DNA of 46,422 nucleotides from Coriobacteriia bacterium (GTDB lineage: Bacteria > Actinomycetota > Coriobacteriia > Anaerosomatales > PALSA-660). The translations under genes were made by a program, and so were the position numbers. Position 1 is the first letter of the stretch. Every line of letters starts with the position of its first letter. The stretch is taken from assembly GCA_030651905.1 (NCBI GenBank), contig JAUSBS010000048.1:1-46422 (forward strand). The letters are read 5' to 3'. The notes below the pieces were generated by a model. It saw only the letters and a list, made by a program, of their open reading frames with translations, ran no database searches and was not told the origin of the DNA. Below are positions 23,037-42,781 of this stretch, one piece after another.

Positions 23037-23627
23037 GTGCGCGCCCGTTGCTTCATCGCCGTCCCGTTGGGAAGTGAGGCGCTCGCGCTCGTGGCCGACG
23101 CGCGCGGCGCCTTCCTCGGTCTCGCGCCCGAATGGGCGGGTGAGAAATGGGTGCGCCCCGACATCGTCCATATGACGTTGATGTATGCGGGGCCGTTGTC
23201 GGACGTAGCGGTCGATGACTCGCTGCAGATCCTCGCCGATGAGTGCCTGCACCACGCGCCCTTCGAACTACGGCTCGCCGGCGCGCGCGCTGTCCCTTCA
23301 CACGGGCCGGCGCGGATGCTGTGGGCCACCCTCGACGGCGAGACGCATCACTGCGCGCGGCTGTCGTCCGCGATATCGCACGTGCTGGAGCAGCGCCTCG
23401 ACATCCCGCACGACGACCGTGTGTTCGTCCCGCACGTCACACTAGTCAGGAGCCGCCGGCCGCGACCGGTCCCGCCGCGTGCGGTCGACGCAGCGGGCGA
23501 GGCGCTGACGTGCGGTAAGGAAACGGACAGGATCGTGTCAGTACGGTATGTCACGCTCTACGCCAGCACGCTGCAGCCGGACGGTCCGGTCTACGAGGAA
23601 CTCGGTTCGGTCCCGCTGTTGGGATGA
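23037..23627 (+). CDS. thpR: RNA 2',3'-cyclic phosphodiesterase (2H family)
   Basis: 2H phosphoesterase that opens 2',3'-cyclic phosphate ends of RNA, LigT/ThpR group. The 196-residue protein starts RARCFIAVPLGSEALALV. It has both catalytic His-x-Thr motifs, HMTLMYAG near residue 45 and HVTLVRSRRP in the second half. The GTG start lies five bases after the cinA stop, so it shares that operon. The physiological substrate in bacteria is uncertain. The recA promoter begins 20 bases after its stop. Confidence 0.9.
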   Translation: MRARCFIAVPLGSEALALVADARGAFLGLAPEWAGEKWVRPDIVHMTLMYAGPLSDVAVDDSLQILADECLHHAPFELRLAGARAVPSHGPARMLWATLDGETHHCARLSSAISHVLEQRLDIPHDDRVFVPHVTLVRSRRPRPVPPRAVDAAGEALTCGKETDRIVSVRYVTLYASTLQPDGPVYEELGSVPLLG

Positions 23628-23647
23628 TCCGAAGGACTGCGTGCCGA

Positions 23648-23676
23648 TTGACATCGAACAGGTGTTCGTATACGTT
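23648..23676 (+). promoter_or_regulatory. recA promoter with embedded LexA box
   Basis: TTGACA at 23648-23653 is a perfect -35; 17 bases later TACGTT (23671-23676) is a weak -10. The spacer contains the perfect inverted repeat CGAACAGGTGTTCG (23655-23668), which fits the Gram-positive SOS operator CGAAC-N4-GTTCG. Repressor bound there would block RNA polymerase, and damage-induced LexA cleavage would release it. The same operator type occurs at lexA in this window. Confidence 0.85.
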
Positions 23677-23728
23677 GAGGACGCGGCCCGCCCGCGTCGA
23701 CATCGGTTGATGAAGGAGCAGTCCATCC

Positions 23729-24805
23729 ATGGAGCGCGAGCAGATCGACAAGGTCTTGGAACTGACGAAGGAACAGGTCGAGCGCAAGTTCGGCAAGGGT
23801 TCGCTGATGCGCCTCGGTGAGCAGGCGAACATCGGTGCTATGCCCGCCATCCCCACCGGCTCACTCGCGCTGGACGCCGCACTCGGCATCGGTGGCGTCC
23901 CACGCGGCCGCATCGTCGAGATCTACGGCCCCGAGTCCGGCGGTAAGACCACACTCGCCCTGCAGATCATCGCCGAGGCGCAGCGTCTGGGGGGCATCGC
24001 GGCGTTCATCGATGCTGAGCACGCCATGGATCCGGCCTACGCCGCCAAGATCGGCGTCGACATCGACGATGTCCTCATCAGCCAGCCGGACACCGGCGAA
24101 CAGGCCCTCGAGATCGCCGACATGCTGGTCCGCAGCGGTGCGATCGACGTCGTCGTCATCGACTCGGTCGCGGCCCTCGTCCCACGTGCGGAACTCGAAG
24201 GTGAGATGGGCGACGTCACGGTCGGCCTCCAGGCCCGCCTGATGAGCCAGGCCCTGCGCAAGCTCGCCGGTTCCCTGTCCAAGTCCAACACCACATGCAT
24301 CTTCATCAACCAGTTGCGCGAGAAGATCGGCGTCATGTTCGGCAGCCCCGAGACCACGTCGGGCGGTCGCGCGCTGAAGTTCTACGCTTCCATCCGCATC
24401 GACATCCGTCGCATCGACTCCATCAAGCAAGGCACGGACATCGTGGGCAACCGCGTGCGTGCGAAGGTCGTCAAGAACAAGGTCGCTCCGCCCTTCCGGA
24501 TGGCCGAGTTCGACCTCATGTACGGTCAGGGCATCAGCAAGGAGGGCTCGCTCATCGACCTGGGTGTCGAGGAGGGGATCGTCGCCAAGTCCGGATCGTG
24601 GTTCAACTACGGCGAGGAACGCCTCGGGCAAGGCCGCGAATCCGCGAAGGACTTCCTGCGCGAGCACACCGACATCCGTGATCGCATCGAATCGCAGATC
24701 CGTGAGCGGCTGGGGCTCCTGCAGCAGCGCCCCAACGGCGAGGATGCACCGGAGGCCGCGCCCGAGCCTGCTCCCAGTGAGGCGAAGACGCCCAAGACCA
24801 AGTAG
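23729..24805 (+). CDS. recA: Recombinase RecA
   Basis: ATP-dependent strand-exchange protein of homologous recombination and co-protease for LexA. The 358-residue protein has Walker A GPESGGKT at residues 67-74, [32 protein letters not shown], the L2/DNA-binding region [21 protein letters not shown] and [13 protein letters not shown] short acidic Pro/Ala tail ends the protein. ATG 23729 follows AAGGAG. It lies behind an SOS-box promoter, with recX 39 bases downstream. Confidence 0.99.
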
Positions 24806-37296: not shown

Positions 37297-37929
37297 CTAC
37301 ATCCGCCTGAAGACCGCGACGACCTTGCCCAGGATCGTGACGTCCCGCACGTAGATCGGGTCCATGTCGGGGTTCTGCGGCTGGAGCCGGATGCGATCCG
37401 CCTCGCGGAAGTACGTCTTCACGGTCGCCTCGTCCTCGATCAGGGCTACCACGATGTCGCCGTTGATCGCGGTCGGCTGCTGATGGACCACGACGAAGTC
37501 GCCATCGAGGATGCCCGCGTCGATCATCGAGTCACCCTTCACACGCAAGACGAAGGTCGAGTCCTCGCGGGCGATCTCGGTGGGCAGCGTGATGGTCTGC
37601 TCGATGTTCTCCATGGCCAGAGTGGGCGAGCCTGCGGCCACAGCGCCGAGAACAGGAAGCTCGATGACGCCGGACATGTCCGGTCGGCCCTCATCGCGAT
37701 CGCGGTCCAGGACCTCGAGGGCGCGAGGTTTGCTCGGATCCCGCCTGATGAGCCCCTTCGCCTCGAGAGCGGCGAGGTGCGAATGCACGGTGGACGAGGA
37801 TGAGAGACCCACTGCTGTCCCGATGTCGCGGACCGTCGGAGGATAGCCCTTGCGGCGCGTCTCGGACTTGATGAATTCGAGGACCTGACGTTGCCGGTCC
37901 GTGAGGTCCCGCTTGCGCGCGTAGGACAT
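37297..37929 (-). CDS. lexA: SOS repressor LexA
   Basis: Transcriptional repressor of the SOS regulon, inactivated by RecA-stimulated self-cleavage. The 210-residue protein has a winged-helix DNA-binding domain ([15 protein letters not shown] to about residue 75). The S24 peptidase domain has the cleavage site Ala99-Gly100 in LGAVAAGSP, catalytic Ser134 in KGDSMIDAG and Lys171 in [10 protein letters not shown] start at the ATG at 37929, with GGAAGGGG 8 bases upstream. The track start at 38049 would translate straight through two operators and the promoter, giving an Arg/Ser-rich leader unlike LexA. Two LexA boxes flank its promoter, so it should repress itself. Confidence 0.97.
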
Positions 37930-37947
37930 CTGGTGCGCCCCTTCCAT

Positions 37948-38011
37948 CGAAAGCACGTTCGACTCCGCTCCACTGTAGCGGCATCGCTTCCGTGATGCAA
38001 ACACCCGTTCG
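37948..38011 (-). promoter_or_regulatory. lexA promoter with two LexA boxes
   Basis: On the minus strand TTGCAT (38000-37995) and TACAGT (37977-37972) form a promoter with exact 17-base spacing. A box CGAACGGGTGTTTG (minus strand, 38011-37998) overlaps the -35. A second, CGAACGTGCTTTCG (37961-37948), lies just downstream in the leader. Both match the CGAAC-N4-GTTCG operator with one mismatch per half at most. This fits self-repression by LexA. Confidence 0.8.
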
Positions 38012-38021
38012 ATTCCTGCGC

Positions 38022-38069
38022 TTGCAATCGAACACGTGTTTGGTATCATCGGATGCGAACATACGTTCG
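38022..38069 (+). promoter_or_regulatory. Promoter of the LysM division suppressor with two LexA boxes
   Basis: TTGCAA (38022-38027) and TATCAT (38044-38049) form a promoter with a 16-base spacer. The near-perfect operator CGAACACGTGTTTG (38029-38042) fills the spacer. A perfect one, CGAACATACGTTCG (38056-38069), covers the expected RNA start. This is the layout expected of a tightly repressed SOS gene. Confidence 0.8.
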
Positions 38070-38175
38070 TCTCTGATGATCGAGGGCGATGTCAGACCCG
38101 GGCGGTACGGTCCCGGTGGCAGCAGGCGGGGAGAGGCCCCGCCGCGCGAGTAGGACCGAAAGCAGGAGGATCACC

Positions 38176-38562
38176 ATGTTCGCAGCGATCGTCGCAGCAC
38201 CCACCGCACACTCCACCGCCATCCGTGACGGAGACGCCCGGCGCCGCCGCCGCCCGGAGAGCGTGCTGGCGCCGTTCTGGGTCTTCGCCATCGTGCTGGC
38301 GCTGCTCGTGGTGGCCGCTGCACTCCCGACGGCCTCGGGAAGCGTGCGGGCCGCGTCGGCCACCCACCGCGTCCGCATCGCCGCATCGGACACGTTGTGG
38401 TCCGTCGCCGCGGCCAACCCCGTGGCCGGTCTCACCACCGCCGAATCGGTGGCCGTCATCCGCCGCCTCAACGGTCTCGAAGACAGTGCCTTGCTCCAGC
38501 CCGGCGCCGTCATCACCGTCCCCTCCGGCGCGGACGCCACCGCAGACCTGGCGATGCGCTAA
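38176..38562 (+). CDS. LysM-domain SOS cell-division suppressor (YneA/DivS/ChiZ-like)
   Basis: Membrane-anchored LysM protein expected to delay septation during DNA damage. The 128-residue product has a basic cytoplasmic N-terminus (DARRRRRPE), one membrane helix (about residues 31-51, VFAIVLALLVVAAAL) and an outside LysM domain (HRVRIAASDTLWSVAAANP to AVITVPSGA, about 64-118). I start at ATG 38176, which has a strong AGGAGG; ATG 38089 in the track has none. It is divergent from lexA and just upstream of nrdR, exactly where Mycobacterium has chiZ (Rv2719c) and Corynebacterium divS. The function is inferred from position, topology and the two LexA operators. ChiZ is also described as a wall hydrolase. 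Confidence 0.85.
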   Translation: MFAAIVAAPTAHSTAIRDGDARRRRRPESVLAPFWVFAIVLALLVVAAALPTASGSVRAASATHRVRIAASDTLWSVAAANPVAGLTTAESVAVIRRLNGLEDSALLQPGAVITVPSGADATADLAMR

Positions 38563-38614
38563 CCCCTCCCGACACTCGATCGCAACCGTCTGCCGACTTG
38601 GTGAACGGACCTTG

Positions 38615-38666
38615 TTGTAACCCCATATCTTGTGTGCTAGTTTCAGGAGCGGCCTAGATATTGGGG
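38615..38666 (+). promoter_or_regulatory. nrdR-nrdD operon promoter with tandem NrdR boxes
   Basis: TTGTAA (38615-38620) and TAGTTT (38638-38643) with a 17-base spacer form a likely promoter; TGC just before TAGTTT adds an extended -10 feature. ACCCCATATCTTGTGT (38620-38635) matches the NrdR consensus (acaCwAtATaTwGtgt) at 14 of 16 positions and lies in the spacer. A second site 31 bases downstream, GGCCTAGATATTGGGG (38651-38666), keeps the core CTAGATATTG. Paired boxes about three helical turns apart are usual for NrdR. Confidence 0.75.
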
Positions 38667-38679
38667 TGGGGGAGATGCG

Positions 38680-39126
38680 ATGAGATGCCCGTTCTGTGGT
38701 CATGCCGAGACCAAGGTCGTGGATTCCCGCGTCTCCGAATCCCAGGACGCCATCCGACGGCGACGCGAGTGTCTGGAGTGCGAGCAGCGCTTCACCACCT
38801 ACGAACGACGCGAGGAAGTGCCGCTGCAGGTCGTGAAGCGGGATGGTCGTCACGAGCCGTTCGATCGAGGCAAGTTGCTCCGCGGTCTTGTGGTCGCCAC
38901 AGTCAAACGGGAGGTCACCGCCGAGCAGCTCGAGAACCTGATCGACGGGATCGAGTCGGAGCTTCACAACGCGTTCAGATATGAGATCTCTGCGCACCAG
39001 CTCGGCGACATGGTCCTGGGGCGCCTCAAGGAGCTCGACAAGGTGGCGTACGTCCGTTTCGCGTCGGTCTACAAGTCCTTCCAGGACTTGGACGAGTTCA
39101 CGAGCGAGATGAAGAACCTGAAGTAG
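38680..39126 (+). CDS. nrdR: Transcriptional repressor NrdR
   Basis: Zinc-ribbon/ATP-cone repressor of ribonucleotide reductase genes that senses the dATP/ATP balance. The 148-residue protein has the ribbon cysteines 3, 6, 31 and 34 (CPFC and CLEC) and the ATP-cone VVKRDGRHEPFDRGKLLRGL. It also shows the family signatures RRRRECLECEQRFTTYER and VAYVRFASVYKSFQDLDEF. ATG 38680 has GGGGGAG 7 bases upstream. It is followed directly by nrdD, and tandem NrdR boxes lie in its own promoter, so it likely controls itself and the whole operon. Confidence 0.97.
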   Translation: MRCPFCGHAETKVVDSRVSESQDAIRRRRECLECEQRFTTYERREEVPLQVVKRDGRHEPFDRGKLLRGLVVATVKREVTAEQLENLIDGIESELHNAFRYEISAHQLGDMVLGRLKELDKVAYVRFASVYKSFQDLDEFTSEMKNLK

Positions 39127-39167: not shown

Positions 39168-41336
39168 ATGGTCATGGAACGCGCGATCCGCGTCATCAAG
39201 CCCGCCGGGACACGCGGGGGCGCCGATTCCATCGACATCGCCCTACTCGTCTCCACCTCGTCGAAGCAGCAGATCGATCCGTGGGCACGCTCGAAGATCG
39301 CGGATTCCCTCGTCAGGGAGGCCGGCACATCGCCGGATCTCGCAGAGGAGATCGCCGCCGCGGTCGAGGACCGGATCGACCGAACGAACCTCATGACGGT
39401 CACCACGACGGTCATCCGCGAGATGGTCGACCTCGAACTGCTCGAGCGCGGACTCACCGCGATGCACAGGAAGCACTCCAACCTCGGCATCCCCATGTGG
39501 GACGTCGAGCAGATCATCACGAACGCCAACCACGAGAACTCGAACACGACCCACAATCCCGAGTCGGTCAATCTCACCATCGCCGAGACGATCCTCAAGG
39601 AGTTCGCGCTTCGCCGCGTCTTCTCCGAGGATGTGGCACAGGCGCACCTGACCGGCGACATGCATCTCCACGACCTCGGCTTCATCTTGAGGCCGTACTG
39701 CGGAGGCCACAGCCTCGAGTACGTGAAGAAGTACGGGCTGCGCCTGCCCAACATCACGTCCGTCTCGGAGCCGGCGAAGCACGCCGAGGTGCTCATCGGG
39801 CACATGGTGAAGATGGCCGCCGCTCTGCAGGCGCACTATGCCGGTGCTGTCGGCTGGGAGGCCGTCAACGTGTTCTTCGCCCCGTATCTCGAGGGCCGCA
39901 GCTACGAGCAGATCAAACAGATCGCCCAGATGCTCATCTTCGAGTTCAACCAGTTGGCGGGCGCCCGGGGCAGTCAGGTCGTCTTCACGGACTTCAACCT
40001 CTACTTCAACATCCCTCGCCACTTCGCCGATACGCCCGCGATCGGCCCGGGCGGCGTCTACACCGGCAAGACCTACGGCGACTACGCCCCGGAAGCTCAG
40101 GCGTTCGTGCGAGCGATGTTCGAGGTCTACTACGAGGGCGACGCCACCGGGAAGACCTTCGTGTTCCCCAAGCCGCTGCTCCACATCAACGACGACTTCT
40201 TCGCCACACCGGGGCACGAGGAGTTCCTCGAGTTGGCGTGCAGCGTGGCCTCACATCAGGGCATCACCTACTTCGTCTTCGATCGAGGCGACGAGGTGAC
40301 CGTCTCGCAGTGCTGCAGGCTCAAGTTGAAGTTGAGCCAGAGCGACCTCGACCAGACCAAGACCCCCGAGGTCATGCGCTTCTCCGCGCTTCAGAACGTG
40401 ACGGTCAACCTGCCGAGGCTCGCGTACAAGGCACAGGGTAACGACGCCGCGCTCTTCATGGAGGTCAACAAGGCCCTCGAACTCGTCGCTCAGGCGCACG
40501 TGCAGAAGCGCGCGTTCGTCCAGGAGCTCGTCGACCTCGGCAAGAACGGTCCCCTCGCTCTGCTCACGCAGGAACTCGACGGTACGCCGTACCTACGCAT
40601 GGATCAGCTCACGTACCTCGCGGGGGTCATCGGGCTCAACGAACTCGTGCAGATCCACATCGGCGAGCAGCTCCACGAGTCCGACCGAGCCCTCAAGTTC
40701 GGGTTGAAGGTCATTGCCGCCATGAACCTCAAGTGCAGGGAACTGTCCGAGCGGCACGACCTGAAGCTCGTACTGGAGGAGAGCCCGGCGGAGTCGGCCG
40801 GTTACCGGCTGGCCAAACTCGACATGAAGTACTGGCCCACGCAGGCCGGCGCCGTGGTCAAGGGCGACGCCACGAGCGGCAACTACTACTACACCAACTC
40901 GGTCCACATCGCAGTTGACGCGCCGGTCGACTACATAACCCGGGTGGAGAAGCAGTCCCGCTTCCATCCGCTCATCGACGCCGGCGCCATCGTGCACATC
41001 TGGCTGGGGGAGAGCGAGCCGGATCCCAAGTCGATCGAGTCGTTCGTGGTCAAGACGTTCCGCAACACCCAATGCTCGCAGATCGCCTTCAGCCCGGAGT
41101 TCACCGTGTGCGAGACGTGCGACCGTACGAGCCGCGGCCTCCTGACGCAGTGCCCGCTGTGCGGCTCCATGGATGTCTACGGCGTCACGCGCATCGTCGG
41201 CTACTTCAGCAAGGTGCAGACCTGGAACCGCAGCAAGATCGGTGAGCTCTACGACCGGGTCAGGACGGACCTGGGCGGTCCGGCGCCCGTGGCCGACGCC
41301 AAAGATGCCGGCACCCCACAGATCCGGGCGAGTTAG
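39168..41336 (+). CDS. nrdD: Anaerobic (class III) ribonucleoside-triphosphate reductase
   Basis: Glycyl-radical enzyme that reduces NTPs to dNTPs without oxygen. The 722-residue protein has an ATP-cone-like N-terminus (PWARSKIADSLVREAG), then active-site barrel motifs HDLGFILRPYCGGHSLEY (Cys178) and SQCCRLKLKLS (Cys382, Cys383). The zinc site is CETC and CPLC (648, 651, 662, 665), and the glycyl-radical motif is RIVGYFSKVQ (Gly678). ATG 39168 follows AGAGGGAG; ATG 39174 is also possible. A CPRC redoxin and the activase nrdG follow. The adjacent redoxin suggests a thiol-dependent subtype rather than formate-dependent NrdD1. Confidence 0.96.
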   Translation: MVMERAIRVIKPAGTRGGADSIDIALLVSTSSKQQIDPWARSKIADSLVREAGTSPDLAEEIAAAVEDRIDRTNLMTVTTTVIREMVDLELLERGLTAMHRKHSNLGIPMWDVEQIITNANHENSNTTHNPESVNLTIAETILKEFALRRVFSEDVAQAHLTGDMHLHDLGFILRPYCGGHSLEYVKKYGLRLPNITSVSEPAKHAEVLIGHMVKMAAALQAHYAGAVGWEAVNVFFAPYLEGRSYEQIKQIAQMLIFEFNQLAGARGSQVVFTDFNLYFNIPRHFADTPAIGPGGVYTGKTYGDYAPEAQAFVRAMFEVYYEGDATGKTFVFPKPLLHINDDFFATPGHEEFLELACSVASHQGITYFVFDRGDEVTVSQCCRLKLKLSQSDLDQTKTPEVMRFSALQNVTVNLPRLAYKAQGNDAALFMEVNKALELVAQAHVQKRAFVQELVDLGKNGPLALLTQELDGTPYLRMDQLTYLAGVIGLNELVQIHIGEQLHESDRALKFGLKVIAAMNLKCRELSERHDLKLVLEESPAESAGYRLAKLDMKYWPTQAGAVVKGDATSGNYYYTNSVHIAVDAPVDYITRVEKQSRFHPLIDAGAIVHIWLGESEPDPKSIESFVVKTFRNTQCSQIAFSPEFTVCETCDRTSRGLLTQCPLCGSMDVYGVTRIVGYFSKVQTWNRSKIGELYDRVRTDLGGPAPVADAKDAGTPQIRAS

Positions 41337-41347
41337 GGGAGACACGC

Positions 41348-41599
41348 ATGCCCATCAAACTCTTCGTCAAGGACGACTGTCCGAGGTGCCCCGCCGCCAA
41401 GAACGCGTGCGAAGGAATAGGCGGCGTCGAGGTCTTCAACGTCGACGAGATCGACGGGCTGGCTGAGGCCCACTTCTACGGCGTGCTGTCCACGCCGTCG
41501 GTACTCGTCATCGACGACAACGGCAAAGAGGTCACCGGTTGGCGCGGTGTGGCACCAGAGCGGGCCCGGCTCCGGATGTATGAGGAGTTGAAGAGTTGA
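41348..41599 (+). CDS. Glutaredoxin/thioredoxin-like redoxin (CPRC)
   Basis: Small thiol-disulfide protein of 83 residues with active site CPRC (Cys11, Cys14) in KLFVKDDCPRCPAAKNA, a cis-Pro loop in LSTPSVLVID and the thioredoxin-fold order of strands. It lacks the longer thioredoxin helices, so it is NrdH/glutaredoxin-like. It lies 11 bases after nrdD and overlaps the nrdG start (TTGA). Its place between the anaerobic reductase and its activase suggests it is the electron donor for NrdD or keeps its cysteines reduced. That role is inference. Confidence 0.88.
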   Translation: MPIKLFVKDDCPRCPAAKNACEGIGGVEVFNVDEIDGLAEAHFYGVLSTPSVLVIDDNGKEVTGWRGVAPERARLRMYEELKS

Positions 41600-42339
41600 G
41601 TGAGATGCATGCAGCGCCGGCGCACCACGCGCCCACCAGGCGCCTCGTCGCGTGGATGCCTGCAGGGATGCTGGATTGGCCCGGCAAGGTCTCGGCGACC
41701 CTCTTCCTCTCGGGCTGCTCGCTGCGATGCCCCTACTGCCACAACGCCTCCTTGCGTACGCCGACGGAGGCGCCCATGGAGTGGGACGACATCGTGGCGC
41801 ACATCGACGCGAAGCGCTCCTGGCTCGACGGAGTGGTCGTCACCGGCGGAGAGCCTACTGAGGATCCCGACCTGCCGTCCCTGCTCGCTGCACTCGCCGA
41901 GGTGGGCGTACCCGTCAAGCTCGACACGAACGGTACGCACCCTGAGGTCCTGCGCCATCTGATAGCGGAGGAGCTCGTGTCGTTCGTGGCGCTCGATGTG
42001 AAAGCGACTCCCGCCGGCTACGGCGCGTTCGCACGTGCAGGCTCGGCCTCGCTCGTGGCCCGCTCCATCGAGACGATCATCCGCTCGCGGATCGAGCACG
42101 AGTTCCGCACGACCGCGTACCCCGGCGCCGTGCGTCTCGACGACTTCCCCCGCATCGCCCGCGCGCTGCGCGGCGGTAGGCTCTACGCGCTCCAGCAGTT
42201 CCGCCCGGGGCACACTCTCGACCCGCACGCCTCGACCGTGCGCCCGTACCAGGAGGGCGATCTTCGTGTGGCGGCGACCGCGTGCTCCGCGTTCCTGCCC
42301 ACGATAGTCCGGGGCCTGCGGGCCGGAGAGGCGGCCTAG
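41596..42339 (+). CDS. nrdG: Anaerobic ribonucleotide reductase activating protein
   Basis: Radical-SAM activase that generates the glycyl radical on NrdD. The 247-residue protein has the CxxxCxxC triad in [15 protein letters not shown] (Cys41, 45, 48), [11 protein letters not shown] and [13 protein letters not shown]. It is longer than the 154-residue E. coli NrdG and fits the longer anaerobic activase subfamily. Start choice is between TTG 41596, which overlaps the redoxin stop with GAGGAG 8 bases upstream, and ATG 41605; the track start is kept. dut follows 10 bases later. Confidence 0.92.
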
Positions 42340-42349
42340 GGCCGTGCCG

Positions 42350-42781
42350 ATGCGACTCGCGATCCGCCGCCTCGACCCCGAACTGCCGCTTCCGGCCTAT
42401 GCACACGCGGGGGACGCGGGAATGGACCTCTACGCCGCCGAGGACGTCACCCTTCAGCCACATCAGCGCGCACTCGTGCCCACCGGCATCGCGGTCGCCA
42501 TCCCGGAGGGCTACGCCGGCTTCGTCCAGCCCCGCAGCGGACTCGCCATCAAGCAGGGGCTCAGTATCGTCAACACGCCGGGACTCATCGACAGCCACTA
42601 TCGCGGCGAGATCAAGGTCATCGCGGTCAACCTGGATCCGGCGACACCCATCTCGATACTGCGTGGCGACAAGATCGCGCAGTTCGTCATCCAGTCCGTG
42701 GTGCGCGCGGTCCTCGTCGAGGTCGCCGAACTGGACGAGACCGTCCGAGGGGAGAGCGGCTTTGGCAGCACGGGCGTCTAG
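42350..42781 (+). CDS. dut: dUTP diphosphatase
   Basis: Hydrolyses dUTP to dUMP, protecting DNA from uracil and feeding thymidylate synthesis. The 143-residue trimeric dUTPase has all five motifs: [43 protein letters not shown] and the C-terminal [12 protein letters not shown] 42350 is used because AGGG lies 8 bases upstream; GTG 42344 is too close to it. Its presence right after nrdD-nrdG ties it to the dNTP operon. The next gene starts inside its last codons. Confidence 0.95.

Follow-up and report, generated by a model that had tools for sequence, protein, structure and literature searches.

Which damage signals govern a division gene that is transcribed divergently from lexA, and does the LexA repressor act on it alone? 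The question is raised by a 46,422-nucleotide stretch of DNA from a Coriobacteriia bacterium (assembly GCA_030651905.1, contig JAUSBS010000048.1; hereafter the window), in which lexA and a gene for a small membrane protein of the YneA/ChiZ type are separated by a short region containing LexA boxes. In YneA, the transmembrane segment and the LysM domain are both required to block FtsW-dependent septal synthesis (PMC13396833). In mycobacteria, the regulator PafBC is activated by single-stranded DNA and works by sigma adaptation (PMC11804915). Here, we describe a computational analysis of this locus and of its relatives in the order, the class and the phylum. We present evidence that the division gene possesses, in addition to a promoter that LexA would repress, a promoter element of the PafBC type located in its leader.

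Results

lexA lies opposite a gene for a membrane-anchored LysM protein

The genes of the locus are the following.

37297..37929, minus strand: lexA, 210 aa, likely start ATG 37929 (MSYARK...) behind GAAGGGG
38176..38562, plus strand: divS/yneA/chiZ-like gene (the division gene), 128 aa, ATG 38176, Shine-Dalgarno sequence AGGAGG at 38164-38169
38680..39126, plus strand: nrdR (TIGR00244), the next gene downstream of the inhibitor gene

The lexA product matches the full-length LexA family model TIGR00498 with 244.7 bits (cut-off 110.95) and contains the Peptidase_S24 and LexA_DNA_bind domains. Reading of its sequence shows an intact Ala-Gly cleavage site (VAAGSP) and Ser/Lys dyad (the serine of GDSM and the lysine of TVK). 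The product of the division gene has a basic N-terminus, a single transmembrane helix at about residues 32-49 and a LysM domain at residues 69-116 that scores 27.0 bits against the Pfam LysM model (cut-off 20.9). An AlphaFold model contains the same helix and the LysM fold with a pLDDT of about 90, and in a fold search LysM structures ranked best, although not significantly (best E-value 0.03). The protein resembles YneA, although against the curated YneA equivalog model NF010723 it scores 33.6 bits, under the cut-off of 60. It does share the architecture and setting of ChiZ and YneA, that is, one transmembrane segment, an extracytoplasmic LysM domain, divergence from lexA and SOS boxes. The divergent pairing of lexA with a YneA/ChiZ-type gene that the initial annotation had recognized is thus confirmed, as a TIGR00498 lexA opposite a membrane-anchored LysM protein. 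On the basis of this architecture, the protein is probably a cell-division brake.

At its C-terminus (38550-38562) the inhibitor, like its relatives throughout the order, ends in a short conserved tail that usually reads (V/L)A-(M/S)-R. Clearance of YneA requires proteases, and the tail may mark the protein for an extracytoplasmic protease. Downstream of nrdR, genes for the class III ribonucleotide reductase nrdD, a small thioredoxin-like protein, nrdG2 and a dUTPase follow in a row (39168-42781), and these nucleotide supply genes adjoin the SOS switch. A pair of AT-rich near-palindromes, CCCCATATCTTGTGTG and CCTAGATATTGGGG, lies ahead of nrdR at 38621-38666 with a separation of about three helical turns; it resembles paired NrdR boxes and would fit an autoregulation of nrdR and the class III reductase.

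Four LexA boxes occupy two back-to-back promoters

The intergenic region contains the following boxes and predicted promoter elements.

37948..37961, no strand: LexA box 1, CGAAAGCACGTTCG, one mismatch to the consensus CGAACNNNNGTTCG
37972..37977, minus strand: lexA -10, TACAGT, 17 nt from the -35
37995..38000, minus strand: lexA -35, TTGCAT, overlapping box 2, 17-nt spacer to the -10
37998..38011, no strand: LexA box 2, CAAACACCCGTTCG (minus strand CGAACGGGTGTTTG), one mismatch to CGAACNNNNGTTCG
38022..38027, plus strand: -35 of the division-gene SOS promoter, TTGCAA, 16-nt spacer
38029..38042, no strand: LexA box 3, CGAACACGTGTTTG, one mismatch to CGAACNNNNGTTCG
38044..38049, plus strand: -10 of the division-gene SOS promoter, TATCAT, with TGG (TGn) directly ahead
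38056..38069, no strand: LexA box 4, CGAACATACGTTCG, no mismatch to CGAACNNNNGTTCG

The initial annotation had placed CGAAC-N4-GTTCG-type boxes at 37948, 37998, 38029 and 38056, and all four starts proved exact to the base. 20,000 dinucleotide shuffles of the 243-bp intergenic region contained zero, one or two boxes with at most one mismatch, as against the four observed. Both hexamer pairs it had named, TTGCAA-N16-TATCAT on the plus strand (38022-38049) and TTGCAT-N17-TACAGT on the minus strand (38000-37972), are likewise present, but the promoters do not face each other as it had stated; they are divergent and lie back to back. TTGCAA-N16-TATCAT is the sole sigma70-like promoter found in 37800-38750, where 0.1 were expected. 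The predicted transcript starts, at about 37965 for lexA and about 38056 on the plus strand, are separated by approximately 91 bp. The boxes are positioned on these promoters as had been proposed: box 1 covers about +4 to +17 of the lexA leader, box 2 is fused to the lexA -35 and has three bases in common with it, box 3 fills the spacer of the division-gene promoter, and box 4 coincides with the predicted start of its transcript. Each promoter therefore possesses its own pair of boxes, and no box is common to both.

Uncultured Coriobacteriia throughout the order have the boxes at similar spacing, with gaps clustering at 45-48, 30-31 and 26-28 bp. Among 45 fully scored order regions, which were chosen for the CAAAC form at box 2 and which, as relatives of shared ancestry, are not phylogenetically independent, box 3 is perfect in 32 and box 4 in 36, as against one for box 1 and none for box 2. 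Box 1 is the least conserved and is missing or degenerate in several families of the order. Box 2 has the form CAAAC-N4-GTTCG in 45 of 48 order regions, this being the unbiased count, and is never perfect. TTGC of the lexA -35 is kept in 44/45 scored relatives, and the lexA -10 occurs as TACACT or TAGACT at the exact spacing in most relatives and is one base off in the others. The lexA operator would thus be kept imperfect because box 2 shares TTG with the -35, which a perfect box would destroy. This difference in box perfection supports a comparatively weak autorepression of lexA, and the boxes on the division side are the stronger ones; as worded, the earlier proposal of one repressor layer with tighter control of the division gene is nevertheless not supported.

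In a survey of the phylum, in which division-gene homologues were found with a 43-sequence family profile that may miss diverged inhibitors, exactly one box was present in 18 of 20 lexA loci in which no divS was detected, and three to four in 17 of 20 loci with divS. Box number tracks the presence of divS, and the extra boxes therefore belong to the division gene. In the organism's own 1.88-Mb genome, perfect CGAAC-N4-GTTYG sites precede recA, uvrA and uvrD, occur at the lexA/division-gene locus, and precede a gene directly upstream of a DnaE-type PHP-domain gene. Their position before SOS genes indicates that this sequence is the operator used by the genome. Five further perfect matches (L002, L003, L004, L006 and L012) lie inside open reading frames, as judged by eye, and were counted as chance. 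The site before recA forms the second SOS promoter of the window.

23655..23668, no strand: LexA box CGAACAGGTGTTCG, perfect, before recA (23729-24805)

The division-gene leader contains a conserved PafBC-type promoter element

Alignment of the family revealed an RTGTCAGA island past box 4. In the window it is part of TGTCAG-N10-TACGGT (38090-38111), just downstream of box 4 and within the leader of the division gene, with a predicted start at about 38118, approximately 62 nt downstream of the SOS-promoter start.

38090..38095, plus strand: PafBC-type (RecA-NDp) element, TGTCAG, about -28 to -23 of the second promoter
38106..38111, plus strand: -10 of the second promoter, TACGGT (TANNNT), exactly 10 nt after TGTCAG

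When up to one mismatch is allowed, TGTCAG-N10-TANNNT is found in 60/60 distinct order regions, and permuted and reversed motif controls gave no matches. All 60 share GTCA, the A that follows TGTCAG, and both the A and the final T of the -10, and 50 of the 51 spacings counted measure 10 nt; the frame of TGTCAG relative to the division gene, however, is spread 25/21/12 over the order. The element is also directional. Among 148 lexA upstream regions, the TGTCAG or TGTCCG form was found 71 times in the divS direction and once in the lexA direction. In the rest of the class the plain TGTC(A/G)G form was absent from all 42 loci, but a variant recognized later, TGTCCG-N10-TA, is present in the other orders at 18/20 divS loci as against 1/22 loci without divS.

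The mycobacterial PafBC/RecA-NDp motif has been given as tTGTCRgtg-8-TAnnnT (PMC5656591), and that of M. tuberculosis as TGTCGG, TGTCAG or TGTCAC followed by 10N-TA-3N-T (PMC8151990). The site at 38090-38111 has the arrangement TGTC(G/A)G-10 nt-TANNNT expected before damage genes and agrees letter for letter with the published mycobacterial motif. Since a sigma -35/-10 pair would need a longer gap than 10 nt, a promoter adapted by an activator fits. Here the notion of a single repressor layer falls short, as a LexA-free promoter element is also present, order-wide, in the division-gene leader, where it would add an activating layer able to bypass LexA.

An ATG at 38089, within GATGTCAGAC, is in frame with the inhibitor in the window and may lead gene callers to a 157-aa protein; as the true inhibitor start it was rejected, the frame not being conserved across the order. 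The 120-nt leader (38056-38175) is more stable than shuffled sequences (z = -2.7) and contains a GC-rich hairpin, and its length is not conserved. An Rfam scan of the 901-bp region matched no family, and the structured leader is therefore not a known riboswitch.

PafBC and its candidate regulon

The organism's own genome encodes adjacent PafB and PafC proteins with WYL/WCX domains and a PafC helix-turn-helix (HTH_PafC, 62 bits; cut-off 32), and the PafBC structure 6sj9 is the top fold match for both. Nearly all of the 36 sampled genomes of the order likewise have pafB next to pafC, as judged for PafB with a query that lacked its first residues, the reference having begun inside the open reading frame. 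PafBC proteins from the order share about 37-52% identity with those of the window. Elsewhere in the class, each of the 20 division-gene loci comes from a genome in which PafB was matched, and none of the 16 loci from PafB-negative genomes contains the division gene; in six PafB-positive cases no division gene was detected.

The TGTCAG-type motif is sparse, with 39 matches over 15 genomes as against 2 in the reversed control. Within the order it precedes recA (at one locus, L228), sbcD-like genes, and PD-(D/E)XK nuclease and HD/OB nuclease-like genes, and in the organism's own genome it precedes dnaX. A sparse motif found before recA and repair genes resembles a damage regulon. The upstream region of the window's recA (23536-23740) has a good sigma70 promoter with a LexA box but no PafBC element, and members of the order seem to differ in whether recA is under dual control.

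In the organism's own genome, a PafBC-type motif, directly followed by a perfect LexA box and then a start codon, is found on the minus strand at G000:C128:22605-22647 (L204/L206). The gene encodes a conserved protein of approximately 100-120 aa (...YFWGVVRRRAL...) for which two members tested gave no Pfam match; this layout recurs in its relatives at L232 and L234, and the motif is also found at L250. This gene may be a second damage gene under dual control. At two further loci of this genome, L207 (minus strand, 2793) and L222, PafBC-type motifs lie ahead of gene pairs of the ribbon-helix-helix/toxin-antitoxin-like kind.

Discussion

The boxes and promoter elements, their order-wide conservation, exact spacing and direction, their co-occurrence with the division gene and the presence of the PafB-PafC genes make it likely that this locus places a DNA-damage division checkpoint under two sensors, through a LexA-repressed promoter and a PafBC promoter nested downstream of it. 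For binding, promoter activity, start sites and the block to division we draw on protein families and the literature. LexA dimers at box 2, and at box 1, would dampen lexA, while dimers at boxes 3 and 4 would close the SOS promoter of the inhibitor gene. Upon DNA damage, RecA filaments on single-stranded DNA would stimulate self-cleavage of LexA and both promoters would open, the division side starting from tighter repression and lexA from leaky repression, which would allow the repressor to be replenished quickly. Independently of LexA, PafBC activated by single-stranded DNA would recruit sigma-A RNA polymerase to the second promoter, near 38118. Because the elements of this promoter lie downstream of the LexA boxes, it should fire with LexA bound or RecA missing. 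The inhibitor would then anchor in the membrane, and its LysM domain would bind septal peptidoglycan and delay division. The outcome would be OR-type control of the division brake by two sensors, with lexA responding to LexA alone.

Were LexA the only regulator of both promoters, TGTCAG would have to be something else, for example part of a start codon (ATG TCA GAC, read as M-S-D), as the ATG of GATGTCAGAC, which opens a 157-aa reading frame into the inhibitor, might suggest. Across the order, however, RTG is distributed over all three frames (25/21/12) with TANNNT held at a distance of 10 nt, a Shine-Dalgarno sequence and ATG follow about 35-40 nt later in most genomes, and recA and repair genes have this motif upstream as well, and we consider this explanation highly improbable. 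It is also rather unlikely that the element is an alternative (ECF-type) sigma promoter or the site of an activator other than PafBC. The order consensus RTGTCAGACC does depart from the mycobacterial tTGTCRgtg outside the core, but the 10-nt gap is the geometry of PafBC, a sigma -35/-10 pair requiring 16-19 nt; moreover, PafB and PafC are present in the order, divS was detected in the rest of the class only in genomes with a PafB match, and repair genes lie downstream of the motif.

A further alternative concerns the protein rather than its promoters. ChiZ has been described as a cell-wall hydrolase (PMC3989709), a LysM domain implies peptidoglycan binding only, and the YneA cut-off is not reached, so that the protein could be an SOS-induced wall-remodelling or hydrolase factor instead of a division inhibitor. 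The lexA neighbourhood, the single transmembrane segment with an extracytoplasmic LysM domain and the SOS control are nevertheless common to YneA, and the alternative appears unlikely. A division brake controlled by both LexA and PafBC is the reading we retain.

The closest parallel is the M. tuberculosis lexA/Rv2719c (chiZ) locus, where lexA is likewise divergent from a transmembrane LysM inhibitor gene with SOS boxes. Brooks is said to have reported in 2006 that induction of Rv2719c is RecA-independent. In M. tuberculosis the target of PafBC is the rv2719c operon rather than lexA (PMC8151990), and the same asymmetry, with PafBC on the inhibitor side only, is predicted here. At L185 and L192, two mycobacteria-like loci in the phylum survey, the PafBC element is upstream of the LexA box that lies closest to the inhibitor gene; in the present order it is downstream and adjoins the gene, and the LexA boxes number four. 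The order of promoters seen here recurs at mycobacterial recA, where the dual P1/P2 arrangement places the LexA-controlled promoter distal and the PafBC promoter nearer the gene (PMC5656591); that is a different gene, and the dual layout here would serve the division checkpoint. The C. glutamicum lexA/divS locus also has a LexA-controlled inhibitor gene near lexA (PMC3989709), and we found no PafBC element described for it. DivS of C. glutamicum is not clearly homologous to YneA. B. subtilis lexA/yneA resembles the present locus in its SOS-controlled transmembrane LysM inhibitor and Gram-positive type box, and differs in that the inhibitor here scores below the cut-off of the curated YneA model. 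No PafBC system or second damage promoter is known in B. subtilis.

Why two damage pathways are kept for one ligand, single-stranded DNA, has been posed as a question in the PafBC literature (PMC11804915). Both promoters are kept in a fixed layout throughout the order, and in a variant form at most division-gene loci in the rest of the class, which suggests that the division checkpoint must not depend on one sensor. A search of papers outside subscription found none linking PafBC and Coriobacteria. We think it likely that in the class Coriobacteriia the division brake is wired both to RecA-LexA derepression and to PafBC activation via two tandem promoters with the PafBC promoter adjacent to the gene, and that dual wiring is an old actinobacterial trait in which promoter order was swapped between lineages. 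If so, dual wiring of the division gene would not be a mycobacterial peculiarity, the motif RTGTCAGACC-N7-TAGGGT could be used for mapping a PafBC-type regulon in Coriobacteriia, and the checkpoint could be triggered in the absence of RecA or while LexA remains on its boxes.
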